A stretch of 29,669 bases of DNA, taken from positions 1 through 29,669 of IMG/VR virus record IMGVR_UViG_3300012926_000015; one strand, written 5' to 3'. Positions 46 through 27,949 of the stretch are shown piece by piece; position 1 is the first letter of the stretch; every line of letters starts with the position of its first letter. This DNA is from a virus. The notes beneath the pieces were generated by a model. The model searched no databases, was not told the DNA's origin, and was given only the letters and a program-made list of their open reading frames with translations. Position numbers and translations under genes: made by a program.

Positions 46-839
46 TGGCATACAGCTATGACTACGACAAGACTAGGACTTTGGCGGTGCAGTTGACGAC
101 GTATAACAGCCTGGAGCTGCTGAAGGCTGCGATCGAGAGTGTGTATGCGCAGGACTGCCAGGCGATCGATCACGTTTATTTAGAGGTTACTAATAACGGC
201 AGCACGGACGCCACGATGAACTGGCTGAATAGCTATGACGTGGCGGATGGTGACGATGCACTGGTGGTGTCGAACCAGCTAGTGAATCAGTCGCCGGTGA
301 AGCTGGCGAATAACGCGCTCTGGAGGCTGTTCAGTCAGGAAGGTTTCAGCGAAGTTCTGATGATGCCGAATGATGTTGTGCTGCCAAGTGATTTCGTGGA
401 CCATTTGAGATCGTGGCCGAGAGGTGTGGTCACAGCGAGTATGTCAGGCGAGATGCCGACAGGCGAGCCTACGTATGGTGTGCGTGCGGTGAGCGAGAAC
501 ACGCCGATGGCTGTAGTGCTGTGGCGCAAGTGGTGCTATGACGCTGTGGTGGCGGAGTATGGTTACTTTCTGGACGAGGGGTTCTGGTTCTATGGATCAG
601 ATTGTGACCTGGCGTTGAGGATGGCCGCGCTTGGGATCAGAGGCGTGCAGCTCGACATTCCCTACTATCACTTTGGAAGTGCGTCCTGGAAGACAGCGCC
701 TGAACCCGAGAAGCAGATGATGCTGATCCAGGCGGATATCGACAGAGAGTACTTCGAGAAGAAGTGGAACTTTAGAGTTGACGATCCCGAATACTCTCGA
801 CTAGCTGCCGATCTAAACTTCAAAGGAAGATCGCGATGA
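45..839 (+). CDS. GT2-like glycosyltransferase (GT-A fold)
   Basis: 264 aa, probably a sugar transferase using a nucleotide-sugar donor. Residues 13-21 (LAVQLTTYN) form the first strand of a GT-A Rossmann-like fold. NNGSTDAT at 50-57 is the typical donor-binding segment. MMPNDVVLP at 107-113 sits where the DxD-type metal site is expected, with N109/D110, and GSDCDLALRM at 184-193 matches the ED-x-DL-R motif of family GT2. I chose ATG 45 over TTG 42 because GGAGG at 30-34 is 10 bases away and the upstream stop overlaps it. In phages such enzymes modify host surface sugars, virion proteins or DNA bases; which applies here is not visible. The gene overlaps the next by ATGA. Its last 20 residues recur at the end of the following HNH protein. 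Confidence 0.8.
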   Translation: MAYSYDYDKTRTLAVQLTTYNSLELLKAAIESVYAQDCQAIDHVYLEVTNNGSTDATMNWLNSYDVADGDDALVVSNQLVNQSPVKLANNALWRLFSQEGFSEVLMMPNDVVLPSDFVDHLRSWPRGVVTASMSGEMPTGEPTYGVRAVSENTPMAVVLWRKWCYDAVVAEYGYFLDEGFWFYGSDCDLALRMAALGIRGVQLDIPYYHFGSASWKTAPEPEKQMMLIQADIDREYFEKKWNFRVDDPEYSRLAADLNFKGRSR

Positions 840-1387
840 GAGAGATTCAACTAACTCCCCGAGGAGTCGCCTTAGTTGATGACGAGGATTACGTATGGCT
901 GTCTCGACATAAGTGGAAGGCCAAACGGTACAACAACAAGACTGGTAAATTTATGGCCTGTCGAAATGTCACGGTGAATAAACGATCTGAGTTCCTAGCC
1001 ATGCATCGAGCTATCGTAGGAGTAACTGACCCCAAGATAAAAGTCGACCATCATGACCGAGATGGATTGAACAACCAACGATACAACTTGAGGAAGGCGA
1101 ACTCTCGGCAGAACAACACGAACCGAGATAAGCAACAGGGAACTTCTAGTAAGTATAAAGGGGTGTCTCGGCGTTCTTCCGAAACGTATCCATGGTCTTC
1201 TTATATAACGTTTGAAAGGAAGCGTAGGCACATTGGAGTTTTCGACTGCGAGATAAAGGCCGCGTTGGCCTACAATATCGAAGCTCTAAAGCTGCACGGT
1301 GAGTTCGCAGCTCTAAATGTAGTCGACGACCCGCAGTATGCAGGTCTTGCGCAGGATCTGAACTTCAAGGGACGGCGGATCGGATGA
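836..1387 (+). CDS. HNH homing endonuclease with AP2-type DNA-binding domain
   Basis: 183 aa. The HNH nuclease core is at 70-86 (VDHHDRDGLNNQRYNLR), containing the metal-binding His pair and the Asn of the beta-beta-alpha-metal fold. It is followed by an AP2/ERF-like DNA-binding domain at about 106-158 (YKGVSRR, a Trp, HIGVFDCEIKAALAYN). This HNH_3 plus AP2 architecture is standard for free-standing phage homing endonucleases, which nick or cut an allele lacking the element. The start overlaps the glycosyltransferase stop by ATGA and the stop overlaps the next gene by ATGA, so it sits in frame-coupled fashion inside an operon. Residues 163-180 (VDDPQYAGLAQDLNFKGR) copy the tail of the upstream glycosyltransferase, which suggests how it was inserted. 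Confidence 0.92.
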   Translation: MREIQLTPRGVALVDDEDYVWLSRHKWKAKRYNNKTGKFMACRNVTVNKRSEFLAMHRAIVGVTDPKIKVDHHDRDGLNNQRYNLRKANSRQNNTNRDKQQGTSSKYKGVSRRSSETYPWSSYITFERKRRHIGVFDCEIKAALAYNIEALKLHGEFAALNVVDDPQYAGLAQDLNFKGRRIG

Positions 1388-4088: not shown

Positions 4089-6296
4089 ATGTATGTAAAT
4101 CGCAAGTCCAAGCTTCTAAACGAGGCACTGGAAGCCTTGGACCAGAAATACTTCGAGGCGAAGCGCCAGCTGCCGAAAGGCGGCATTGAGGACCATACTG
4201 CTCTGGCTTGGACGTTGTTGACGCCACTAGAGCTGCAGTTCGCTATAGAAGAGCTCGATAACTGCATCAAGGATAGAACGTACTACCTGCAGAACTTCCA
4301 TACGATTGTTACTGAGCAAGGTCTGGCTACGTGTTTGTATCCCATGTTCGATCTGCAGTGGATCGTTGAGAATGCTATCGCCAAGGAGAGGGAAGAAACC
4401 GGCCAGTCGAAGGTGATTGTGCTGAAACCTCGGCAGGCGGGCATTACGGAATACGCTACTGGCACTATGTGCTGGTGCTCGTTCTTTGCGCCGAATGCTT
4501 ATACGGTGTCAGTGGCGCAGGCACCAGATGTTTCGGCCCATGTGCAGCGCAAAGTCAACATTGCCTACAACGGCCTGCCATGGTTCATGCGGCCTGAGCG
4601 TCAGTATCACTCGAAAGGCGAGTACATCGAGTTCAACAGGAAGGATCTGAGTGAGCGGGTAACGAATCCTGGCCTGGGCTCTGTGTTCATTACGACGCAT
4701 GCTCAGCGTGGGTCGGGCATTGCTATTGGTAGGACGGTGCGTAACTTGCACATGACTGAGGTCAGTCGCTGGGCGAGCACGGAGGTCTACACGGCTGATT
4801 TGGAACCGAGCATGAACGCCAGCGACACGATGGGCATTAGCGAGAGTACAGCCTTGGGTAGCGATGGCTTGTTCTACAACATGTGGCAGGAGGCCGAGGA
4901 AGGTGACTCAGATTGGGTGCCGGTGTTTCTACCTGTATACAAGGCGAAGAAATTCTCGCTGCCGTTGAAGCCCAGTCAGGTGCCTTTTCTGTTGACGCCG
5001 TTGGAGGCAGCTGCTCGGGAACGCGTCATGGCCGAGGAGGCTGGGTTCAAGATTACCGATGAGTTTTTTAACTGGCGGCGGCGGAGGCTGAAGTCGGCGA
5101 TCAAGCGGACCGGATATCCGTATGCGCATTATGAGTCTTATCCGATGACGCCGCAGGAGGCTTTCCAGTCGAGCGGCCTCTGTGCGTTCCCACGGCATAA
5201 GCTGGACGAGCAGAGTCAGTCGCATATGCGCCGGCCGGTCAAAATAGGCGAGATGATGTTTGGCGGGCTGCATGCAGTGCCGAAGCCGTTGATGACTGTG
5301 GTCAAGCCGGGCCAGGCGCTAGAGAAGAGGGAGACTGAGAACAGGTTCTATATGTGGGAGGACCCAAGTCCGATGGCGAGTTACTATCTCAGTGCGGACA
5401 CAGGTGCAGGCTTGGTTGGCGGCGATCCACTAGTGGCTGTAGTATGGCGTGCTGGCGTTGGTGCGAACCCTGACGTGCAGGTGGCCGACTGGGTCGGGTT
5501 TGCGCCGCCGACGGAGTACGCCAAGATTCTGTATGCGATCGGCATGTACTACAACAAGTGCGAGGTAGCGGTCGAGTACGCCAAGGAAGGTATGATCACG
5601 GCAGTGTACCTGCAGAATCAGTTGGAGTATCCGAATCTGTATAGGCCGAGGGCGGAAGATCGCGTGGGCAAGCAGATGGCCAACTACCTGCACTGGCAGA
5701 CGACGAGCAAGACCAAAGCGTTGATGGTTGGGCGCATGGGCGAGGCCTTGTTGGAGGATAGTGTTGTTATTCGCTCGGAGTACATCCTGAAGGAGATGTA
5801 CAAGTTCAGCAAGGATGGAGCTGGGTACTCGGGGCTGGGTAGCCACGACGATGGCGTTATAGCGATCATGATCGGGTTGTATGCGTTGCGCCAGACGATG
5901 CCGGAGTTGCGAAGTCCAGCGGCTAAGGAAGATGCAGGCAGGCAGACGCCGAGCCGGGGCGCAAGGCCGAGTGGCGGTGCTGTGTTGTATGGGCTGTATG
6001 ACGAACTGTGCAGGATGCGTGGCCAGACGCCGGTGTTGGCGAAGGCTGAGGAGTATGCGGCGGCTCGGCCGGGCTGGGTGGTCAAGCCGATTATGGTGTC
6101 CAAGGCCAACACGGCTTACTCGGTGATCCATCATGGCGGCGGCATCGAGAACGAGCTGTTGAGGCGTGAGGGTATGGATCAGTGGGATATCACGCCTGGG
6201 GTGGTGGCTGCGTGGCGGGGTGCCAAGTCGAACGACCAGGGCCAGGAGGCGGAGGAGTTTGCGAGTCTGCTGGCGGGCGAGAGCTGGGCGGAGTAG
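4089..6296 (+). CDS. terL: Terminase large subunit (ATPase and nuclease)
   Basis: 735 aa, the motor that pumps phage DNA into the prohead and cuts concatemers. ATPase: variant Walker A KPRQAGIT at 113-120, where the usual Lys before Ser/Thr is missing and K113 precedes the loop, as in other terminases with a KxRQxG signature; Walker B with catalytic Glu in NLHMTEVSRW at 219-228. YPMTPQEAFQSSG at 351-363 is the conserved linker seen in many large terminases. Nuclease (RNase H-like): D437 in YYLSADTGAG, E496 in VAVEYAKEG, D587/D588 in GLGSHDDGVIA. The C-terminal 130 residues form an extension of unknown role. An in-frame stop at 4077 fixes the start at ATG 4089, which has no Shine-Dalgarno. A candidate small subunit is upstream; the genes after it are small paralogues, not a portal. 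Confidence 0.95.
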   Translation: MYVNRKSKLLNEALEALDQKYFEAKRQLPKGGIEDHTALAWTLLTPLELQFAIEELDNCIKDRTYYLQNFHTIVTEQGLATCLYPMFDLQWIVENAIAKEREETGQSKVIVLKPRQAGITEYATGTMCWCSFFAPNAYTVSVAQAPDVSAHVQRKVNIAYNGLPWFMRPERQYHSKGEYIEFNRKDLSERVTNPGLGSVFITTHAQRGSGIAIGRTVRNLHMTEVSRWASTEVYTADLEPSMNASDTMGISESTALGSDGLFYNMWQEAEEGDSDWVPVFLPVYKAKKFSLPLKPSQVPFLLTPLEAAARERVMAEEAGFKITDEFFNWRRRRLKSAIKRTGYPYAHYESYPMTPQEAFQSSGLCAFPRHKLDEQSQSHMRRPVKIGEMMFGGLHAVPKPLMTVVKPGQALEKRETENRFYMWEDPSPMASYYLSADTGAGLVGGDPLVAVVWRAGVGANPDVQVADWVGFAPPTEYAKILYAIGMYYNKCEVAVEYAKEGMITAVYLQNQLEYPNLYRPRAEDRVGKQMANYLHWQTTSKTKALMVGRMGEALLEDSVVIRSEYILKEMYKFSKDGAGYSGLGSHDDGVIAIMIGLYALRQTMPELRSPAAKEDAGRQTPSRGARPSGGAVLYGLYDELCRMRGQTPVLAKAEEYAAARPGWVVKPIMVSKANTAYSVIHHGGGIENELLRREGMDQWDITPGVVAAWRGAKSNDQGQEAEEFASLLAGESWAE

Positions 6297-7414: not shown

Positions 7415-7773
7415 TGCGAGGGCACAAGGACAACAAAGGTGAGTCAGTAGTCGAGCACTTCAGGAACTTCCTGAGGGATATGCCAATCGAGGAGTTCATG
7501 GACGCGGTTGGGCGGGTGCTGGTGGCAGACGAGGTGGCTGCGTTGGAAGTTGTGGTGCTGGTGCGTGGGCACAACGACTCGATCGTGGAGTACAAGTGGG
7601 GCCAGGCGGCAGCGGCTGCTGGCTCGGACCTGGTGCGGGAGGCTGCAGCTACTCGGCCTTTTCAGATAGGTTCGTCGGAGCCGTCGGTGCTGTACTGGTC
7701 GAAGCCAGTTGGTGACTTGGAGGCACAGTTGACTTGGCCAGAAGAGCCTGTTGACGAAGGCGAGGACGAGTAG
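7414..7773 (+). CDS. Small hypothetical protein, paralogue B2
   Basis: 119 aa, unknown. ATG 7414 overlaps the previous stop (TGATG). The first 65 residues match paralogue B1 in its EVVVLVRG and VEYKWG segments, while an acidic tail (EEPVDEGEDE) is private to this copy. Its last 125 bases overlap, tail to tail, the 3' end of the minus-strand RepL-like gene, so both proteins share that stretch in opposite strands. Confidence 0.72.
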   Translation: MRGHKDNKGESVVEHFRNFLRDMPIEEFMDAVGRVLVADEVAALEVVVLVRGHNDSIVEYKWGQAAAAAGSDLVREAAATRPFQIGSSEPSVLYWSKPVGDLEAQLTWPEEPVDEGEDE

Positions 7774-8251
7774 CTTGGAGTTGGTCCCACACCAAACAGG
7801 CTTGGTTCTGCTGGGGCGGATTCCCTTTGAAGAAGTGCCTTGGGTTCAGCAGGATCTTGCCAGGGCCATCACGGCGCAATACGTCTAACCCTTCAAGCTT
7901 AGACAGAGACTGGCTGATGTTACAGCGCGCGACGCCGGTCTCGGACGAAACTTTGTTCTGCTTGATACCGGACACGATATTGCCCATGTCTACGTTAGCG
8001 CACAACCAATCCAACACGGTCCGAGTCTCGCCGCGGATCTTATGCTGGATGCATAGGTCGAACAACTCTGTGAAGCAGACCACGTAGGTTCCTTTCTCCG
8101 TGTCGAAACGTTTGGATGGTTTGAACTTGATGTCGTAGGTATCGCCGTGACGATCGGTCATCGATCTGACATCGAAAGGCTTAGGAGGCCTGCCTCGACG
8201 GGGGCGTGACTCCGTCATGACTTCTATATCTGCGAGCTTAGGCTCATCCAT
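7649..8251 (-). CDS. RepL-like winged-helix protein with AT-hook
   Basis: 200 aa. Residues 18-26 (RRGRPPKPF) are an AT-hook-type minor-groove contact. About 75-145 form a winged helix-turn-helix; NKVSSETGVARCNISQSLSK (99-118) and KILLNPRHFFKGN (132-144) fit the pattern of RepL plasmid initiators (turn, recognition helix, wing ending in LNPxxFF). The last 40 residues are low complexity and lie antisense to the end of the opposite gene. It could be a replication initiator or a transcriptional regulator. I chose ATG 8251 over 8269 because TGCTATAAC ends six bases before it and neither start has a Shine-Dalgarno. It faces left, downstream of an HNH gene, and an inverted repeat upstream suggests self-control. 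Confidence 0.82.
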   Translation of the reverse strand: MDEPKLADIEVMTESRPRRGRPPKPFDVRSMTDRHGDTYDIKFKPSKRFDTEKGTYVVCFTELFDLCIQHKIRGETRTVLDWLCANVDMGNIVSGIKQNKVSSETGVARCNISQSLSKLEGLDVLRRDGPGKILLNPRHFFKGNPPQQNQACLVWDQLQATRPRLRQQALLAKSTVPPSHQLASTSTAPTAPTNLSEKAE

Positions 8252-8257
8252 GTTGTT

Positions 8258-8292
8258 GTTATAGCACATGTTTAGAGTTGTCGGTATACAAC
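8258..8292 (-). promoter_or_regulatory. Extended -10 and operator-like inverted repeat of the RepL-like gene
   Basis: On the minus strand TGCTATAAC (8258-8266) is an extended -10 placed six bases before ATG 8251. GTTGT (8277-8281) and ACAAC (8288-8292) form an inverted repeat over the region where a -35 would lie. Repressor or activator binding there is inferred. Confidence 0.45.
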
Positions 8293-8360: not shown

Positions 8361-8993
8361 CTATCGTAGAATCCACTCGGCAAAGATTCGCAGGTCCTCG
8401 ATCGAGTGGTTGGACTTGATTGAGTTGGCCTTGTGCGAGATCACTTGGATGTTGCCGGGAACGTAGCCAAGGGCTGGAACTATTCGGTCGACTGTGGGCG
8501 AGTCGAACTGCCAACGACCACCATCTCCCTTACGTCCAAGGTGGCGAACCAGAGGAAATCCAAAGATCGGACAGTAGGTTGGAATCGAGATGTCGGCTGT
8601 GGTGATCGTGCATGACAGGTTGAAGTCCCGAGCTCGCCGCTTGGCATATGTGAGTAGCATGGTTTCGGCATTGACCTTTCGGTAGGCTAGATGTCGTTCT
8701 AAGATAGCCTCTCGATTTTTGGTGTACAGCTTCGAATCCTTGATCTGAATCTTGCCGAGGCGTTCCTGCCGGCGTACGCGCTCACACAACTTGCAGTATG
8801 TAGATCGGCCATTGGATCGATGACGATTGTTGACGAAGCTATCGAGAGTGAGAAAGTCCAAGCATAGGAGACATTGCGTTCCGCCTAAGTCCTCGGCCAG
8901 GAGTGTGTGAATGACAGGAGGTGTGGTGCGAGTCCGGCGTGGCTGACCGTTGAGATTGAGTGTTGGAGGTTTTGGAACAATCGTGGATAACAT
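8361..8993 (-). CDS. Zinc-finger HNH (His-Me finger) endonuclease
   Basis: 210 aa. An N-terminal four-Cys zinc site (C41, C44, C67, C70) with a basic segment is typical of DNA-recognising phage endonucleases. A helical linker follows, then the nuclease domain: IPTYCPIFG (137-145), SPTVDRI (165-171), GYVPGN (176-181) and VISHKAN (184-190), the spacing seen in free-standing phage HNH enzymes that carry DRIDxxxGYxxGNxxVIS. It probably cuts or nicks DNA as a mobile element or in recombination. It has no Shine-Dalgarno; a good promoter ends six bases before the ATG, so a leaderless message is likely. The C-terminus ends 110 bases before the RepL-like gene, which may be co-transcribed. Confidence 0.88.
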   Translation of the reverse strand: MLSTIVPKPPTLNLNGQPRRTRTTPPVIHTLLAEDLGGTQCLLCLDFLTLDSFVNNRHRSNGRSTYCKLCERVRRQERLGKIQIKDSKLYTKNREAILERHLAYRKVNAETMLLTYAKRRARDFNLSCTITTADISIPTYCPIFGFPLVRHLGRKGDGGRWQFDSPTVDRIVPALGYVPGNIQVISHKANSIKSNHSIEDLRIFAEWILR

Positions 8994-8999
8994 AAAACC

Positions 9000-9028
9000 A
9001 TATTACATGAATTTGTGAATTTTGTAAA
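9000..9028 (-). promoter_or_regulatory. Leftward sigma70-type promoter, leaderless
   Basis: On the minus strand TTTACA (9023-9028), a 17-base spacer and TAATAT (9000-9005). The ATG of the HNH gene is six bases after the -10, so the first transcribed base should fall at or next to the start codon. Confidence 0.6.
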
Positions 9029-9373
9029 TTTTAAAAAATTTTGGATAATCTTACCAGCTTTTACTCCAACGTTCTCGCAGCCGCCTCCCTACCCACCCCC
9101 ACCCCCTTGACTAGGCGCACGCGCGCGGGTGCACGATGCGCTTGGATGACGACGCGTGCGCGCGAACTGAAAGCTAGGGTAGGGGCAGGCGGGCGGCAGG
9201 GTCGAGCGCGGCGGGGAGTAGTAGCACTGGCATGAGTAGCAGCAGCAGCGCTGCGGCCTAGGCGCACGCCACGTGCAGGGCACGGGCGGCGGCACGACTG
9301 GCACTAGCAGCACTCGCACTCGCACGCAACTAGAAGGTAACGTTACTAGCACTACGATTACGTACGATTGTGG
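9029..9373. other. Non-coding control region with nested inverted repeats and G-quadruplex motifs
   Basis: No convincing gene. An AT-rich stretch up to about 9055 gives way to a very GC-rich segment. CCCTACCC (9087-9094) pairs with GGGTAGGG (9177-9184), and nested inside GCGCACGCG (9115-9123) pairs with CGCGTGCGC (9153-9161). The minus strand of 9087-9106 and the plus strand of 9177-9201 each fit a four-tract G-quadruplex. CTAGGCGCACGC occurs twice (9111-9122, 9258-9269). GTAACGTTAC at 9337-9346 is a perfect palindrome. GCAC motifs recur at 9292-9325. It lies between leftward and rightward transcription units. Confidence 0.6.
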
Positions 9374-9402
9374 TTGACAATGGTTGCGTGCAGTGGTGAA
9401 CT
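9374..9402 (+). promoter_or_regulatory. Rightward TTGACA promoter (family member A)
   Basis: TTGACA at 9374-9379 with TGAACT at 9397-9402 after 17 bases. The segment TTGACAATGGTTG and the TGGTG before the -10 recur in the promoters near 24388 and 29547. It would drive the 53-aa gene and genes to its right. Confidence 0.6.
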
Positions 9403-9466
9403 GTACCTGCAACATCGGACAGCGCAGCGTCCATACCAGCACCAGCACCAGCATGAGGTAGTCCAC

Positions 9467-9628
9467 ATGACACTCAATCAACAGCGCACCAACATAGCCA
9501 ACGCAATACGCGAAGCAGTCGGAGCAGGTAGGCCGATGACAGTCGTACATCCATTGCTTACTACGGCAGTGAACTGGGTTCCGTTGCCGGATAGCCAGCT
9601 ACAGACGTCGGTCGCGCCGAGAAGCTAG
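9467..9628 (+). CDS. Small hypothetical protein (53 aa)
   Basis: First gene after promoter A. TGAGGT at 9454-9459 is seven bases before ATG 9467; earlier in-frame starts would overlap the promoter. The product begins MTLNQQRTNIANAIREAVGA, a likely amphipathic helix, and has a hydrophobic middle (HPLLTTAVNWVPLP). No family recognised. A hexanucleotide ACCAGC repeat sits in its leader at about 9435-9452. Confidence 0.6.
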   Translation: MTLNQQRTNIANAIREAVGAGRPMTVVHPLLTTAVNWVPLPDSQLQTSVAPRS

Positions 9629-9662
9629 CACGCAATCGCACGATCTTGCACGAAACTGCACG
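9628..9662. repeat. Four GCACG motifs at exact 10-bp period
   Basis: GCACG starts at 9628, 9638, 9648 and 9658, one B-DNA turn apart, so all four face the same side of the helix. The array lies between a gene stop and the leader of the next gene. This suits cooperative protein binding (operator or iteron-like), but no binding protein is identified. Confidence 0.55.
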
Positions 9663-9709
9663 TTGAGCTGTACCACGAAGTCACTCACGCCACGAAAGAG
9701 GAAGACGAA

Positions 9710-20677: not shown

Positions 20678-20952
20678 TGAAACTCTACTTCGTAATCCCC
20701 AGAGACGCTGAACTACTGCCAGAGAACTTTACTATCTCCCTCACCGTAGTCGGTCAAGACAAGCTCGGCAACAAAACTGAAAAACCTCACGCAGCTATGG
20801 CATTTCTCAAGCGCAACTATGCTGAGAAGCATATCGAGTTCCTGCGAGGCTGGTCGCAGAAGAACAACGACTGGTACCGTGGCCCGAACAAATGGCGAAT
20901 CGTAACCACGCTCTGCATCCCAGTAGGCCGCCCAAGAAAGGCAGGCAAGTAA
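20677..20952 (+). CDS. Hypothetical protein
   Basis: 91 aa, unknown. N-terminal strand (KLYFVIPRD), a basic helix (HAAMAFLKRNYAEKHIEFLR), a W-rich stretch (WSQKNNDWYRGPNKWRIV) and a basic end (GRPRKAGK). The basic charge would suit nucleic-acid binding. Overlaps TGATG upstream and TAATG downstream. Confidence 0.7.
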   Translation: MKLYFVIPRDAELLPENFTISLTVVGQDKLGNKTEKPHAAMAFLKRNYAEKHIEFLRGWSQKNNDWYRGPNKWRIVTTLCIPVGRPRKAGK

Positions 20953-21326
20953 TGCCGATGCCGATACCGACGACTAAACTCTCCCCGCGCCAGCTCAACA
21001 TCCTCCGCGAACTAGGCATGGTCTGCTACGACAAGCATCCTACCCTGCTCATAACTCCAGGTTGGCTTGGCGGTCGTGACGGATCGCACCACTCGCACAC
21101 CCTGGCCCAGCTCTGCCGCAAAGGCCTAGCGCACCGAACTAAATGGGGCACGACCGGAGCCTGTAACTGCCGCTGCGGCTCAACAGCGCAGTTCGGCCAC
21201 CGCTGCAAGGGAAGCTTCAGCTATGACATCACGCGCGACGGCGTAATGGCGCTGGCTGATGACGATGTGTTCAAACGGTTCGTGGCCAGACGTGTAGCGA
21301 AGGAGGAATCCAATGCCAGCGCCTAA
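20952..21326 (+). CDS. Winged-helix-like protein with Cys cluster
   Basis: 124 aa from ATG 20952 (TAATG overlap; the longer frame is a shadow). LSPRQLNILRELGMV, SHTLAQLCRKGLAHR and YDITRDGVMALA mark the helices and wing of a MarR/phage-type winged helix as seen in small phage DNA-binding proteins, where 'YxITxxG' ends the wing. A cluster C71, C73, C75, C85 (CNCRCGSTAQFGHRC) is inserted between recognition helix and wing and may hold zinc. Likely a DNA-binding regulator, though no target is visible. Confidence 0.72.
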   Translation: MPMPIPTTKLSPRQLNILRELGMVCYDKHPTLLITPGWLGGRDGSHHSHTLAQLCRKGLAHRTKWGTTGACNCRCGSTAQFGHRCKGSFSYDITRDGVMALADDDVFKRFVARRVAKEESNASA

Positions 21327-21660
21327 GAACTACCACAACCAAGATCCGTTCATGACGAATCCTGCATACACGCGCGAGGCTCTGCGCATCGAGCACGCAG
21401 CTTTCGAAAAAGCCGAGCGTGCTACGGGCAAAGCTTGGCATGATATTCCTACGCTGACTGATTGGGTGCTGCTACGCCTGCAAACCGCCGAAGACTCTCT
21501 CGCCAAGCTAAAGGAGAACGCGTGCTCTGTGCCAATTCCGGCAGCTACACGCCTTACAGGTGCATGCAAATTCTGTGGCTACCTACTTGACGATCACCTG
21601 CTCGATCAGGACGGCACCTGGTTCTGTCCACCGCCAACAGCAGCGAAGGCCAAGCCATGA
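21313..21660 (+). CDS. Hypothetical protein with zinc-type C-terminus
   Basis: 115 aa. A helical N-terminal two thirds, with ALRIEHAAFEKAERATGKAW, precedes a small metal site C85, C88, H95, C105 (CKFCGYLLDDH, WFCPP). GAAGGAGG at 21299-21306 is the ribosome site. Start overlaps the preceding gene by 14 bases, stop overlaps the next start by ATGA. Function unknown. Confidence 0.72.
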   Translation: MPAPKNYHNQDPFMTNPAYTREALRIEHAAFEKAERATGKAWHDIPTLTDWVLLRLQTAEDSLAKLKENACSVPIPAATRLTGACKFCGYLLDDHLLDQDGTWFCPPPTAAKAKP

Positions 21661-21884
21661 CCCTTGCTGACTACCTATTTATCGCTTGGCTCATCAACTT
21701 CGTTGTAGTCCTCATCATGATCCGTCTGGCCTACGCGCGCACGAACTTCTACGATCGGTTCTCAGTCCAGACCGACAACTGGATCAATACATTCCTGATC
21801 ACGTTCATCCTGCAGACTGCATTCATGGTCACCTACAACTTCGCCCGTCTAATCCATCTCTATCATCTCCACGGAAGGTCCTAG
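21657..21884 (+). CDS. Small two-helix membrane protein
   Basis: 75 aa. Two transmembrane helices, about 6-24 (LFIAWLINFVVVLIMIRLA) and 44-62 (FLITFILQTAFMVTYNFA), separated by a polar loop containing RFSVQTDNW. Coupled by ATGA. The topology resembles that of the 66-aa protein at 19715, but the sequences are not clearly related. Confidence 0.7.
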   Translation: MTLADYLFIAWLINFVVVLIMIRLAYARTNFYDRFSVQTDNWINTFLITFILQTAFMVTYNFARLIHLYHLHGRS

Positions 21885-21891
21885 CCTAGCC

Positions 21892-22599
21892 ATGCCCAAC
21901 AATCCCGCCAACCTCCATCACTGTCATCTCGTCACACCGATGACTAACACACTCAACAAAACTCTCTGTGGCTTGAATATCATCCACAGCATGAGTCCAA
22001 CTCAGGGACCGCCCAGTACCTGGCGCACTTACCGGACTAGCGATGTCACCTGCAGCGACTGCATCCAGATCCTCAAGGATAAGGATATGTGGAAGGAGTC
22101 GGAGCTGAAGCTAGAGCCGAAGTCGGAGGATAACCCATATCTCCCAGAAGACTACGTAGCTAAAGCCAAAGCCGAAGCCGATCACAGCCGACGCTTCAAC
22201 GTGGATTACATGATGGCTGATGCTGTGCCGCCTGCTCTCTCCGCGTTCGAGCAAAAACTACTCGCCTCCGCCCAGCAGCAGATCCTGAAAATGTTCTCAG
22301 ACGGCAGTCTCGTCATGCCAGACTACGCCAACCGTATCAAGATCCCAGCTGACCTCGTCCAGAAAATCTACTCTCTGATCGATTACGACGCCGTGCTCGA
22401 ACTCCTGCGACCTAAAATCAACGAGCTCGTCGCCAAAAAGATCCTACACGTACTCACCGAGGAACTCAGTGCCGACGTCAAAAAGACTATGTCCACCGGC
22501 CCGATCCGCGACAAGCTCAAAGCTACTCTCACAGTTGAGCTGGCTAAGGTCGTGCACGTGGCCGACGAACTCGCCAAGCTGAAAGCCCGTCAGTCATGA
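21892..22599 (+). CDS. Zinc-finger protein with helical C-terminal domain
   Basis: 235 aa. The N-terminal 60 residues form a probable zinc site with H10/C11 or H12, C26, C54 and C57 (HHCHLVTP, TLCGL, VTCSDC), a layout common in phage and actinobacterial proteins reading 'CGxxxxxxT ... VTCxxC'. Residues 110-235 are almost entirely helical (FEQKLLASAQQQILKMFSDG, YDAVLELLRPKINELVAKKI) and may form a coiled-coil or multimerising domain. Function unknown. It starts seven bases after the previous stop with no clear ribosome site. Confidence 0.75.
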   Translation: MPNNPANLHHCHLVTPMTNTLNKTLCGLNIIHSMSPTQGPPSTWRTYRTSDVTCSDCIQILKDKDMWKESELKLEPKSEDNPYLPEDYVAKAKAEADHSRRFNVDYMMADAVPPALSAFEQKLLASAQQQILKMFSDGSLVMPDYANRIKIPADLVQKIYSLIDYDAVLELLRPKINELVAKKILHVLTEELSADVKKTMSTGPIRDKLKATLTVELAKVVHVADELAKLKARQS

Positions 22600-22796
22600 C
22601 CGAACTCCTCTCCTACACACGCTTCTGGTTCGCCAAGTTCCTCGTCGAACTCTGCCTGACTATTGGTATGCTGGCTACAATCTTATTTGTGGTCTGTGTG
22701 CACAACTTCATCGAACGTCATAGAAAGGATCGTGCTGACCTGACAGAGCCTGACTCGGATCTCGGCTGGGACGACGACAAATGGTGGCATAACTGA
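22596..22796 (+). CDS. Small single-pass membrane protein
   Basis: 66 aa. One helix at about 12-34 (FLVELCLTIGMLATILFVVC), then a charged cytoplasmic-looking tail ending in DLGWDDDKWWHN. ATGA overlap upstream, TGATG downstream. Confidence 0.7.
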   Translation: MTELLSYTRFWFAKFLVELCLTIGMLATILFVVCVHNFIERHRKDRADLTEPDSDLGWDDDKWWHN

Positions 22797-23023
22797 TGAC
22801 TATCTATGTTCGACGAATGTCTGTGCAGGACATGTACAACACCGTCAACCGGCAGCTTACTCTCGTCCCGGCTTGCGACGAGACAGACTTCGCTAAAACC
22901 ATCCTAGGCGTGCTGTGCGAGATGGCGTCACGGTACATCCAAGAGTCTAACGACGAAGGCGAGCAGCAGCTCATGCACAAGCTACAGGCCCTGCCGCCTG
23001 TTGACCCGAAGGATATGAACTGA
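22796..23023 (+). CDS. Small hypothetical protein
   Basis: 75 aa, probably helical (DFAKTILGVLCEMASRYIQE, EGEQQLMHKLQALPPVD). No recognised family. Overlaps both neighbours by TGATG. Confidence 0.65.
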   Translation: MTIYVRRMSVQDMYNTVNRQLTLVPACDETDFAKTILGVLCEMASRYIQESNDEGEQQLMHKLQALPPVDPKDMN

Positions 23024-23190
23024 TGCCCGAGCCTAAGATTAGAGACTATCCCGTGATCCCGTCCGAGGCTGTTCCGCCCGGCGAGATCTGGTTCGCCACA
23101 CCTGAAGGCATCACGCACAAAATCATTGGTGTCGACTCAACCACGCCCACTGTAGATGACTTACTAGAGACCTCCGATGACTCCGACTGA
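23023..23190 (+). CDS. Small acidic hypothetical protein (55 aa)
   Basis: Starts in a TGATG overlap and ends 14 bases inside the next gene. The product contains PPGEIWFATPEGITHKIIGV, which may be a small beta unit, and an acidic end (TVDDLLETSDDSD). Tight placement between two genes is the main support. Confidence 0.6.
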   Translation: MPEPKIRDYPVIPSEAVPPGEIWFATPEGITHKIIGVDSTTPTVDDLLETSDDSD

Positions 23191-23563
23191 AGCTCGTAGC
23201 ATAGTCCGCCGCGAGCTCCCCAACGCTCAACATAACTCGAACGACTTCAACTATCACTGGATCGAGCCTGGCCCGCCAATCTCGGAAGCCTTCCTTGAAG
23301 ACGAAGCCGAAACCGAAATCTGGATGAACCTAGCCCGTGACGGTCACGACCGCACAGACGAGGAACACTTGGCATCCTTCAACATGCTAATGAAGATCCA
23401 ACAGGACGCCGAAGACCGCGCCTGGATCAACGCAGCCGAGCGTATCCTCACCCAAGCCAAGCTCAAGCGCACTAAATTCTGGAATCGATTCTTCGATGTA
23501 GTAATCGGTCTAGGATTCATATTGTTCATCACCGACTTCCTCATCCGACACGGAGTTATCTAG
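23177..23563 (+). CDS. Tail-anchored membrane protein candidate
   Basis: 128 aa. An acidic, mostly helical body (EAETEIWMNLARDGHDRTDE, MLMKIQQDAEDRAWINAAER) is followed by a basic stretch and one C-terminal transmembrane helix (FFDVVIGLGFILFITDFLI at about 105-123). The bulk would face the cytoplasm. No known family. Confidence 0.7.
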   Translation: MTPTEARSIVRRELPNAQHNSNDFNYHWIEPGPPISEAFLEDEAETEIWMNLARDGHDRTDEEHLASFNMLMKIQQDAEDRAWINAAERILTQAKLKRTKFWNRFFDVVIGLGFILFITDFLIRHGVI

Positions 23564-23565
23564 CC

Positions 23566-24006
23566 ATGCGAACAACTCACACCACAACAATCCTGACCTG
23601 CGACCGCTGCCGTTGCGTCACATCAGACCTGCGCCGGATCTATCGGCTCGACACCGAAAACGGTAGCATGTCCTATTCCACTTACTGTCAGCATGAACTA
23701 CTATCCGAGCTATGCTTGACCTGCACGGCCCAGCTCAACCACTTCCTCAATCCTAGCGAGACTGCGCCTGTAGACCCGCGCCTGACAGAAGCTTCTCCCG
23801 CTCAACCTGCTCCAGCATCTCCTGCTCCACATCCTCAACCCGCGCTTGGGGAAGCAATGCAGCCGGAAGCAACCTCACCGCCAGCCCAGTCCCCTGTGCT
23901 GACCACTCAACTAGACCAATCCCCGACAGAGTGGCTAAGGTCTTGGCTAAGGTCCCCCGAGACCAACCGAACCGTCGCTCCACCAGATCAGGACGAAGAA
24001 GTTTAG
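23566..24006 (+). CDS. Zinc-binding protein with Pro-rich tail overlapping an antisense gene
   Basis: 146 aa. The first 55 residues carry a four-Cys site, C12, C15, C50 and C53 (LTCDRCRC, CLTC), likely zinc. From residue 63 on the sequence is Pro/Ala/Gln-rich and low in complexity (PAQPAPASPAPHPQP), and this part lies antisense to a minus-strand winged-helix gene. The tail may have arisen by reading through into that gene. The N-terminal half is likely real; the 3' boundary of the functional protein is less certain. Confidence 0.68.
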   Translation: MRTTHTTTILTCDRCRCVTSDLRRIYRLDTENGSMSYSTYCQHELLSELCLTCTAQLNHFLNPSETAPVDPRLTEASPAQPAPASPAPHPQPALGEAMQPEATSPPAQSPVLTTQLDQSPTEWLRSWLRSPETNRTVAPPDQDEEV

Positions 24007-25262: not shown

Positions 25263-26150
25263 ATGCCCAAGCTCATAATGATGCGCGGTCTGCCCGCCTC
25301 CGGCAAGACCACTAAAGCACGCGAACTCGTCAAGGCCAGCGGCTCGGCCGCGCGCATCAACCGTGACGACCTGCGCGCCATGCTGTTCAATTCCTCCTGG
25401 TCCGGCAAGCGCGAAGAAATCATCATCGCAGCTGAGAAAGCTCTCGTTGGAGTCCTAGCTCGTCACAACCACAACGCCATCATCGACGATACCAACCTCT
25501 CGACGAAGCACGTAGACATGTGGCGGAACGTCGCCAAAGAAACCTACGGCGAGAACAGCTTCGTCATAGAATCCTTACTCGATGTTCCTCGCTACGAATG
25601 TGTTCGTCGTGACCACGCTCGCCAGTTCGATCACGATAGCAAGTTCGTGGGCCGTGCCGTGATCGACCGCATGGCCTTGAGCAATGGCTTGATCGACTGG
25701 AACAATCGGCCTATCATCCTGGTCGACATAGATGGCACCCTTGCGGATGGAACCCACCGCCAGCATTACGTCACTCGACCAGACGGAGAAAAGAAAGACT
25801 GGGACTCTTACTACGAAGCTCTCAGCTACGATGAGCCAATCTCATTCGTAATGAGATGGGTACGAAAGCTCGCTGAAGACCACACGATCTGCCTAGTCTC
25901 AGGCCGTCCTGACACTTACCAGCGCGAAACCATGAACTGGCTGATCAAATGGGCTGTGCCTTACGACTACCTGTTCATGCGGAGTGGGGGAGATCATCGC
26001 CCGGACACAGAAATTAAGCAAAACATCCTGAAGCATATCCCTCGGGACCTGCTGCAGTTTGTAATCGATGACCGTCCACAAGTGATAAAAATGTGGAGGG
26101 AAAACGGAGTGAAAGTCTACCCAGTTCGAGGAGCGTGTGATGAGTTCTAA
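25263..26150 (+). CDS. pseT: Polynucleotide 5'-kinase / 3'-phosphatase (T4 Pnkp-like)
   Basis: 295 aa against 301 in phage T4. Kinase half: P-loop GLPASGKTT at 9-17, with K15 and T16 at the positions of T4 K15 and S16; NRDDLR at 33-38, with D35 and R38 matching the T4 catalytic pair; lid-region arginine near R131. Phosphatase half: HAD motif DIDGT at 155-159 (D155 nucleophile, D157 acid/base), SGRP at 213-216, K253, and DDR at 269-271. It repairs nicked nucleic-acid ends by phosphorylating 5'-OH and removing 3' phosphate or cyclic phosphate, which in T4 counters tRNA cleavage by host anticodon nucleases. AAGGAG at 25240-25245 is the nearest ribosome site. Overlaps the next gene by about ten bases. 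Confidence 0.95.
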   Translation: MPKLIMMRGLPASGKTTKARELVKASGSAARINRDDLRAMLFNSSWSGKREEIIIAAEKALVGVLARHNHNAIIDDTNLSTKHVDMWRNVAKETYGENSFVIESLLDVPRYECVRRDHARQFDHDSKFVGRAVIDRMALSNGLIDWNNRPIILVDIDGTLADGTHRQHYVTRPDGEKKDWDSYYEALSYDEPISFVMRWVRKLAEDHTICLVSGRPDTYQRETMNWLIKWAVPYDYLFMRSGGDHRPDTEIKQNILKHIPRDLLQFVIDDRPQVIKMWRENGVKVYPVRGACDEF

Positions 26151-26505
26151 GTCTATAAAATTTCTTGCCCTAACTTTGCTAGTCGTTTCAATCGCAGCTA
26201 CAGCACAAACCGCCAAGCCTGCTGCTGCAGCGCCAGCTCCCGCCGTGGCCGAAGTCAAGATCCCCGCCGACTCATTCAAAGAACTGAACTACTACATCCT
26301 CCAAGCTGAGAACCTTGACCTCAAGGCCAAGCAAACCCACGCTGACATCGACAAACAAGTCGCACAACAAATGCAGCAGATCCAAGCGCAGGCAAACCCG
26401 ATAATTGAAAAGCTGCGCAAGGATCTAAAAGTGCCTGCCAACTTCGTGCTTGATCAAACCAAGCAGGCGTTCGTGCCGCCTCCGCCAGCACCCACGCACA
26501 ACTAA
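26140..26505 (+). CDS. Exported coiled-coil protein
   Basis: 121 aa from ATG 26140, six bases after GAGGAG; GTG 26137 is an alternative. A textbook signal peptide: basic start, hydrophobic core (FLALTLLVVSIAA), likely cleavage after IAATAQ at about residue 23. A Pro/Ala linker, a coiled coil at 48-98 rich in Gln and Lys, and a Pro-rich end (PPPPAPTHN) follow. It would be periplasmic or secreted, an unusual place for a product from an early-type operon. Superinfection exclusion or lysis control are only guesses. The style resembles small secreted proteins of Gram-negative hosts. Confidence 0.78.
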   Translation: MSSKSIKFLALTLLVVSIAATAQTAKPAAAAPAPAVAEVKIPADSFKELNYYILQAENLDLKAKQTHADIDKQVAQQMQQIQAQANPIIEKLRKDLKVPANFVLDQTKQAFVPPPPAPTHN

Positions 26506-26522: not shown

Positions 26523-26870
26523 ATGACTATTGCCCAACAGAATCTCGATCTAGTTCTATCGCTCCTAACGGATATGTCTATGGCGGACTTAGAAACCCTG
26601 CTCCGTCACACTAAAACCGAACTGAGCTACAAGAAATCCCTACGCGTCTGCAAGCTCTGCTCGGCGCACTTTCAGCGCATCCATCAGGCTCAGAAATACT
26701 GTAGCCTAGCCTGCGTTGAAAAAGTCATGCAGCAGGGTAAAAACGACTGGTGGCGTAAGCACGGAACTGAGTGGCGGGATCAAGTCCGTACGCCAGAACA
26801 GAAAGAACGACTGCAAGTCAAACGCTCTGCCCGAGCCACGCTCAAACAAATAGAAGGGATGATCGACTAG
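26523..26870 (+). CDS. Zinc-finger protein (CxxC-x13-CxxxC), paralogue
   Basis: 115 aa. C43, C46, C60, C64 (VCKLCSAHF, KYCSLAC) give the same zinc-finger spacing as the protein at 15707, with 'F..RxxAQKFC/QKYCS' conserved around it. The N-terminal 35 residues are helical (LDLVLSLLTDMSMADLETLL) and the C-terminus is basic and helical. Likely nucleic-acid binding. It lies between the exported protein and the nucleotidyltransferase. Confidence 0.78.
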   Translation: MTIAQQNLDLVLSLLTDMSMADLETLLRHTKTELSYKKSLRVCKLCSAHFQRIHQAQKYCSLACVEKVMQQGKNDWWRKHGTEWRDQVRTPEQKERLQVKRSARATLKQIEGMID

Positions 26871-26872
26871 CC

Positions 26873-27949
26873 ATGAACCACAACGACTTCAGCCACCTCA
26901 ACCAGATCGTCTATATGGACTTCGGCAGCCATCTCTACGGCACGCACACGCCAACGTCCGACTTCGACTTCAAAGGGATACATATCCCCAGCGCTCAAGA
27001 AATCCTGCTGCAGCGTGTGCAGGAATCTGTCAGCAATCGGCAGTCGAAGCAGCCTGGCGAGAAGAACCTGCCTGGCCAGTCCGAATGCGAGTCCTACGCC
27101 CTATCTAAATTCCTCAAGATGGCCGCTGAGGGCCAGACGGTAGCGCTGGACATGCTGTTCGCTCCCAAAGCACACTGGGGCGTCTCTAGCCGCCTCTGGG
27201 AGGTCATCGTCAACAACCGTGAGAAGCTGCTGACGTCGCGCACAGCAGCATTCCTGGGCTACTGTCGTCGTCAAGTCAACAAGTATGGCATCAAGGGCAG
27301 CCGAGTCGAGGCCGCTGAACGCGCTATGTTACTCTTCTACGCACTATCCAAAGCCGATCACTACAACGACCCTATCAGTGAAATCGACCATTGGCTGCGC
27401 AGCAAAGGTACCTCAGAGCACTCCAGCGTCATCGAGCATCCGATCGGCCCAACTGGAGAGCTTGGATTGTTCTACGAGGTTTGTGGCCGCAAGATCGCTT
27501 ACAACACGCGCGTTAGTGACGCTTATAAAATCTGCGAGCGTATCTATAACGAGTACGGCCATCGTGCCCACCTCGCCAAGGACAACTCCGGCGTCGACTG
27601 GAAGGCTGTCTCGCACGCTGTCCGCGTCGGCTACCAAGCGATCGAGCTGCTAACAGATCACCACATAACGTTCCCGATCCCTCAAGCCCCTCAGGTAATT
27701 CGCATCAAGCTTGGCGAGATCCCGTTCGACACCTGCGCTCAGCTGATCGAGGAGCTCATGATCGCGGTCGAGCACGCTGCAGTCGGCAGCACTCTGCCCG
27801 AGGAGCCCGACCACCAGTTCATTCAGGACCTGATCCTCAGCTCGAACATGCTGGCCGTGCTGAACGCTGGCGAACCTGACCTGGCCCACGCGATCTACGG
27901 CGACGACTGGCCGACAGTCGCACAAGCCGAGTACGACGAGAGCTATTAG
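26873..27949 (+). CDS. Predicted nucleotidyltransferase (COG3541 / YcgL type)
   Basis: 358 aa. FGSHLYGTHTPTSDFDFKGI at about 17-36 is the diagnostic pol-beta-fold motif GS-x10-DxD (G18, S19, D30, D32), which holds metal and NTP. SKFLKMAAEGQTVALDMLF is the second conserved region of this family, and KYGIKGSRVEAAERAMLLF a third. Family members are frequent in large phages and are thought to transfer nucleotides, but substrates are not established. Adjacent to a Pnkp homologue, it may act on broken RNA or DNA ends. ATG 26873 follows the previous stop by two bases; the longer frame is a shadow. A strong terminator lies 29 bases after the stop. Confidence 0.9.
   Translation: MNHNDFSHLNQIVYMDFGSHLYGTHTPTSDFDFKGIHIPSAQEILLQRVQESVSNRQSKQPGEKNLPGQSECESYALSKFLKMAAEGQTVALDMLFAPKAHWGVSSRLWEVIVNNREKLLTSRTAAFLGYCRRQVNKYGIKGSRVEAAERAMLLFYALSKADHYNDPISEIDHWLRSKGTSEHSSVIEHPIGPTGELGLFYEVCGRKIAYNTRVSDAYKICERIYNEYGHRAHLAKDNSGVDWKAVSHAVRVGYQAIELLTDHHITFPIPQAPQVIRIKLGEIPFDTCAQLIEELMIAVEHAAVGSTLPEEPDHQFIQDLILSSNMLAVLNAGEPDLAHAIYGDDWPTVAQAEYDESY

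Follow-up and report, generated by a model that had tools for sequence, protein, structure and literature searches.

Opposed quadruplex motifs in a conserved non-coding region near the terminase gene and the GC-skew maximum of a phage genome

Introduction

What role could a C/G-rich inverted repeat with quadruplex motifs on both strands have between two divergent genes of a phage? The question is raised by positions 9077-9203 of the IMG/VR virus record IMGVR_UViG_3300012926_000015, which was analyzed over its full length of 29,669 nucleotides (the window). The original prediction saw a switch of replication or transcription here, formed by DNA that chooses between one cruciform and two quadruplexes next to an AT-rich stretch and a RepL-like gene. 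To our knowledge, functional quadruplex motifs in phages are hardly known, and a literature search for quadruplexes with a part in the packaging or the origins of phages found nothing relevant; with a motif that is unchanged in a relative, close to a terminase gene and to a presumed point of fork convergence, one can ask cleanly whether phages employ G-tract DNA to terminate forks, to package DNA or to control promoters.

The region was compared with a single relative, IMGVR_UViG_3300015241_000001 (G001; 100,815 bp), the contig ends of which overlap exactly over 77 nt, so that it is taken as a closed assembly. Searches for further relatives with the region, using the neighboring proteins and the motif against viral contigs, genomes, phage and plasmid records, returned this relative only. 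Among records with a related terminase, L022 has a 100% match and stops short of the region; L024 has a 57% match and a different gene order past the terminase.

Quadruplex Motifs and Inverted Repeat

Quadruplex motifs were defined by four G-tracts of at least three with loops of 1-7. On the two strands of the whole 29.7-kb window this rule returned exactly two motifs, and direct reading of the sequence agreed with the original prediction in their positions, tracts and loops, and in the nested inverted repeat that they share:

9087-9106, minus strand: quadruplex motif GGGGGTGGGGGTGGGTAGGG, tracts of 5, 5, 3 and 3, loops of 1, 1 and 2, G4Hunter score 2.90
9177-9201, plus strand: quadruplex motif GGGTAGGGGCAGGCGGGCGGCAGGG, tracts of 3, 4, 3 and 3, loops of 2, 5 and 5, G4Hunter score 1.88
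9087-9094 (left arm) and 9177-9184 (right arm): outer stem of the inverted repeat, 8 bp, not kept in the relative
9115-9123 (left arm) and 9153-9161 (right arm): inner stem of the inverted repeat, 9 bp, not kept in the relative, which has a 2-nt deletion

By chance, fewer than one such motif would be expected (mean 0.05-0.24 per window in Markov simulations of order 1-3), and a pair of motifs on opposite strands within 130 nt occurred in 0 of 600 Markov simulations. The 25-nt G4Hunter scores at the pair, -2.52 and +1.88, are the top two of the window; in a published survey of bacterial viruses, scores of at least 2.0 occurred at 0.00005 per 1000 nt (PMC8036883). The motifs resemble the putative quadruplex sequences of such phage surveys in their G-tracts, their intergenic position and the score by which they are recognized, but they differ in scoring 2.5-2.9, far above the usual phage range, and in forming an opposite-strand pair within an inverted repeat and in being conserved in a relative (PMC8036883). 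These results support a very strong potential for quadruplexes on either strand of the 9077-9203 region; the single-stranded DNA would probably fold into quadruplexes in vitro, and a quadruplex is a possible candidate for the working form of the block.

Of local dinucleotide shuffles, 0.7-0.9% contained nested stems of 8 and 9 bp, and the rest of the window contained none, so that pairing of the cruciform type exceeds chance in this genome. The predicted single-strand fold showed no extra stability over shuffled sequences (z = +0.82), because C- and G-tracts of such composition pair in any order. An Rfam search of the region matched no structured-RNA family, and a tRNA search of the region found none. 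A minus-strand open reading frame at 9089-9550 was considered as a coding explanation and was rejected, since 2-nt indels break it in the relative.

Conservation in the Relative

The non-coding DNA at 9004-9706 aligns to the relative at 81%, and its C/G-rich part contains a perfectly conserved element:

9085-9131: 47-nt block identical in the relative, comprising C-tracts and TTGACTAGGCGCACGCGCGCGGGTG and containing the minus-strand motif

The minus-strand motif is found unchanged at G001 61088-61107. The right arm has been rearranged from GGGTAGGGGCAGGCGGGCGGCAGGG in the window to GGGGGAAGGGGGAGAGTAGGCGTGGGG in the relative (G5-AA-G5 ... G4 ... G5); it is still strongly G-rich, with a 25-nt G4Hunter score of +2.16, and the scores at the same place and on opposite strands rank first and third in the relative. 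The relative has thus kept the minus-strand tracts exactly and the G-richness of the plus strand, and has lost the plus-strand motif in its original form as well as the exact pairing. Overall, the motif was confirmed; it is unusually strong, and the sole relative found has conserved it.

The idea of a conserved choice between cruciform and quadruplexes was not supported by this comparison. The inner right arm of the relative lacks two bases, and both stems are out of register; what remains is a nest of 7/7-bp stems in a slid register, of a kind found in 5-12% of shuffles. Compensating changes that would preserve pairing were looked for in the relative and were not found.

Such observations invite the explanation that the block has no function as a structure: it would be GC-rich, low-complexity intergenic DNA, and its identity in the two phages would stem from patchy recent exchange between mosaic genomes. 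Identical runs of at least 45 nt, up to 1081 nt, are frequent elsewhere between the window and the relative, and the identity of the block may therefore partly reflect exchange; the unexceptional fold stability and the frequency of 7/7 stems in shuffles are also in keeping with this explanation. Yet the 47-nt run sits in non-coding DNA that is only 73% identical and rich in indels, where 0 of 5000 column shuffles produced one, and the quadruplex scores stand far above the rest of the genome; absence of function is accordingly regarded as improbable. The block also continues for 25 nt past the minus-strand motif, and its conservation is therefore not specific to the G-tracts. Further conserved blocks occur at 9254, 9329, 9391 and 9440.

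As a separate observation on mosaicism, window positions 20945-22010 (1066 nt) and 22722-23802 (1081 nt) are perfectly identical to the relative, whereas the remainder of the two genomes shows 82-94% identity, a sign of probable recent exchange of these two stretches.

Gene Neighborhood and Regulatory Elements

The region lies between divergent genes, as the original prediction had it, leftward from 8993 and rightward from 9468:

4089-6296, plus strand: large terminase subunit
7649-8269, minus strand: winged-helix protein with a partial Pfam RepL match
8361-8993, minus strand: endonuclease VII/HNH-like gene (PHROGs 2e-23, 3e-19), absent here in the relative
9468-9628, plus strand: 53-aa ORF, the first of the conserved small rightward frames, with 89% identity to the relative

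The motifs follow the end of the large-terminase gene at a distance of 2.8 kb; the product of this gene resembles those of headful-type phages at just 23-26% identity. The RepL-like gene had been placed next to the motifs. Its product does match Pfam RepL (PF05732) with 25.3 bits against a cut-off of 20.3, over residues 62-163 only, the winged-helix part of the protein; the gene itself is about 0.8 kb away, with one gene between, and the actual neighbor is the endonuclease VII/HNH-like gene. At the corresponding position, the relative encodes a different winged-helix protein, with a weak HTH match only and 33% over 61 aa, and a RepL of the same family was not found at this place. The single-sequence predicted structure of the RepL-like protein reached a pLDDT of 36, too low to be of use, and sequence searches of structure databases gave chance-level matches only.

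Homologues of the 8361-8993 endonuclease are scattered among other viral contigs, as expected of a mobile endonuclease, and the gene appears to be an insertion. An HNH/AP2-like endonuclease gene at window 836-1387 is also absent at the same place in the relative; both genes look like mobile homing endonucleases.

Besides the quadruplex block, the non-coding region contains the following elements:

8990-9055: AT-rich stretch; by 100-nt segments, AT content in the window peaks at 8961 (73%)
9111-9122, plus strand: first copy of the 12-mer CTAGGCGCACGC, a possible protein site
9258-9269, plus strand: second copy of the 12-mer CTAGGCGCACGC
9374-9402, plus strand: promoter-like site TTGACA-N17-TGAACT (TTGACAATGGTTGCG...TGAACT), conserved, with a weak -10 hexamer and a putative promoter role

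The 12-mer CTAGGCGCACGC occurs twice in the window and twice in the relative, and no other copies were found within one mismatch. The conserved 53-aa ORF at 9468 lies downstream of the promoter-like site at 9374. Related sites with TTGACA are found upstream of other genes in both genomes (window 24388 and 29547; G001 61343, 77178, 83126, 85587, 87637 and 44151), with a spacer that is partly in common (several read TTGACA-NNGGTTG) and a TG ahead of the second hexamer; this family is a candidate set of phage promoters.

These elements could belong to a plain divergent regulatory region, in which the C/G-rich block and the 12-mers are putative operators without any role in DNA ends or replication, and in which the leftward gene(s) as well as the 9374 promoter would be controlled by a regulator of the phage or the host, such as the neighboring winged-helix protein. 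The divergent genes on either side, the conserved promoter-like site with its counterparts upstream of other genes, the additional conserved blocks, and the preservation of both 12-mer copies are all consistent with such an arrangement; but the block matches no known operator, and it has stayed identical although the neighboring winged-helix protein of the relative is a different one. We consider this explanation possible, if rather doubtful.

GC Skew and a Candidate Replication Origin

The relative provides the genomic context that extends beyond the window. Structural genes are transcribed leftward at 0-43 kb, and a second group that includes the terminase is transcribed rightward at 44-60 kb; a leftward winged-helix gene at 60.3-60.8 kb is followed by the non-coding region to about 61.4 kb, by small rightward genes at 62-81 kb, and by replication genes (PIF1-like helicase, Sak4-like protein, family A polymerase) at 84-98 kb.

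At fourfold-degenerate sites, the plus-strand skew of the relative is +0.15 in the leftward genes of 0-43 kb, +0.38 in the rightward genes of 44-60 kb, and -0.20 in the rightward genes of 61-84 kb; since it flips within rightward genes and is positive in both directions, gene direction alone does not account for it. Change points were located at 1.25, 41.75, 60.5, 65.75 and 84.0 kb; the one at 41.75 kb tracks gene direction, to which change points evidently respond as well. The skew maximum is found at 61-66 kb, near the quadruplex block. Skew is close to zero from 60.5 to 65.75 kb, and the sign change is spread across that span, so that the block lies near, not exactly at, the turning point. 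The same drop in skew is seen in the window, where the first change point is at 9.4 kb.

An origin-like cluster was found 23 kb away from the block, just past the end of the part of the relative that is homologous to the window. Seven TTACCGCCA iterons in both orientations occupy 83.74-84.05 kb (L021:3740-4050), and this repeat has no copies elsewhere in the 100.8-kb relative; they adjoin a TATATATATATATA run within the most AT-rich 100 nt of that genome, coincide with the 84.0-kb change point, which has the sign of an origin, and lie beside a weak primase/helicase-like AAA gene and the replication genes. CTACCC, considered as a motif in common with the origin region, showed weak clustering only and was set aside. 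In the standard interpretation of phage skew, the maximum marks the terminus and the origin is an inflection with a small repeat array (PMC7111523); by this usual reading, replication would start from the iteron cluster at 83.8-84.0 kb, and forks would end at the 61-66 kb maximum. As a caveat, between 84 and 101 kb the skew is weak and unequal for the two gene strands, and the minimum of the mean-corrected cumulative skew is at 1.3 kb, not 84 kb; the iterons and the change point are therefore the main grounds for calling an origin.

The claim of a replication switch at the motifs is not supported, and that of an origin at the motifs themselves is contradicted by the skew maximum and the distant iterons. 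Such an origin would combine the AT-rich stretch, the inverted repeat and the RepL-like protein; the AT-rich stretch is the most AT-rich of the window and the second most AT-rich of the relative, and the Pfam RepL match exceeds its cut-off. The likeness to iteron origins of phages and plasmids, namely that non-coding DNA with repeats and an AT-rich run lies close to a Rep-like gene, ends there: no iteron array was found in the region, the iterons of the relative form a much better candidate at 83.8-84.0 kb, the block lies near a skew maximum instead of the minimum expected of an origin, and the RepL identity is not kept in the relative. An origin at this locus is considered very unlikely, and the case is a warning that an AT-rich stretch and inverted repeats beside a Rep-like gene are insufficient for calling one.

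Interpretation of the C/G-Rich Block

The reading that we favor, tentatively and at rather less than even confidence, is that of a control region: conserved non-coding DNA of a tailed phage that lies toward the replication terminus or genome end of the map, near the terminase gene and just upstream of the putative promoter for the block of small rightward genes. For a circle replicated both ways from 84 kb, the skew maximum would be expected near 33 kb, versus the observed 61-66 kb; the off-centre maximum would fit a linear genome with fixed ends near 61-66 kb. The near-zero skew at 60.5-65.75 kb might then correspond to a terminal repeat at both ends, which remains a suggestion because a search for direct repeats marking a terminal-repeat boundary found none at 9.0-13 kb.

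Phage genome ends include pac sites and direct terminal repeats. The region resembles them in being non-coding, in its proximity to a terminase gene, in its location before the first block of small genes, and in its position near the skew maximum; it differs from terminal repeats in that no repeat boundary was found at the block. In herpesviruses, the packaging elements pac1 and pac2 combine an AT-rich element with adjacent C/G-tracts, a likeness in layout only, for which no homology is claimed. As expected of a genome end, the block lies near the terminase gene and close to a skew discontinuity. Counted against the favored reading are the single relative, the spread of the sign change, the missing direct-repeat boundary, and the low TerL likeness of 23-26%.

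Under the favored reading of a control region at the terminus or genome end, forks that set out from the iterons at 83.8-84.0 kb of the relative would come to an end in or close to this region. The packaged linear DNA would have both its ends there as well, or not far off. It is probably as duplex DNA that the C/G-rich block is read; together with the flanking 12-mers, it may constitute a duplex element recognized by a protein. Its simplest roles would be a packaging or cut site (of the pac or terminal-repeat kind) or an operator, and it is possibly a packaging or end site. After injection of this end, the putative promoter at 9374 would fire rightward.

Alternatively, the quadruplexes or the hairpin could be the working element, stalling forks or polymerases, and the pair would act as a two-sided fork stop or a polymerase-pausing site. 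For each G-rich arm, the first fork to arrive would have the strand with the motif as its leading-strand template (the minus-strand motif for a rightward fork, the plus-strand motif for a leftward one), a geometry that is deduced from the strands. The leading scores at the same place and on opposite strands in both genomes, the identity of the minus-strand motif, the G-richness that the other arm has kept despite sequence turnover, and the position near the skew maximum are consistent with this alternative, as is the PIF1-like helicase encoded by the relative; helicases of the PIF1 family unwind quadruplexes. The continuation of the identical block beyond the motif and the abundance of exact runs elsewhere in both mosaic genomes weigh against it, and such an element is judged unlikely. 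More specifically, the oppositely oriented pair as a two-sided structural stop that ends forks, or halts the packaging motor, on the phage genome would be a long shot.

Some further gene content was noted in both genomes. In the relative, a single frame of 1031 aa (L021:14025-17120) combines a family A DNA polymerase with a uracil-DNA-glycosylase-like domain at its N terminus (Pfam UDG 3e-18). Among genes for RNA repair, a polynucleotide kinase/phosphatase is common to the window (25263-26200) and the relative (L020:17703-19720); in the relative it is followed by a T4-Rnl1-like RNA ligase that is missing from the window, and the window has an RlaP-like gene at 26771-27949.
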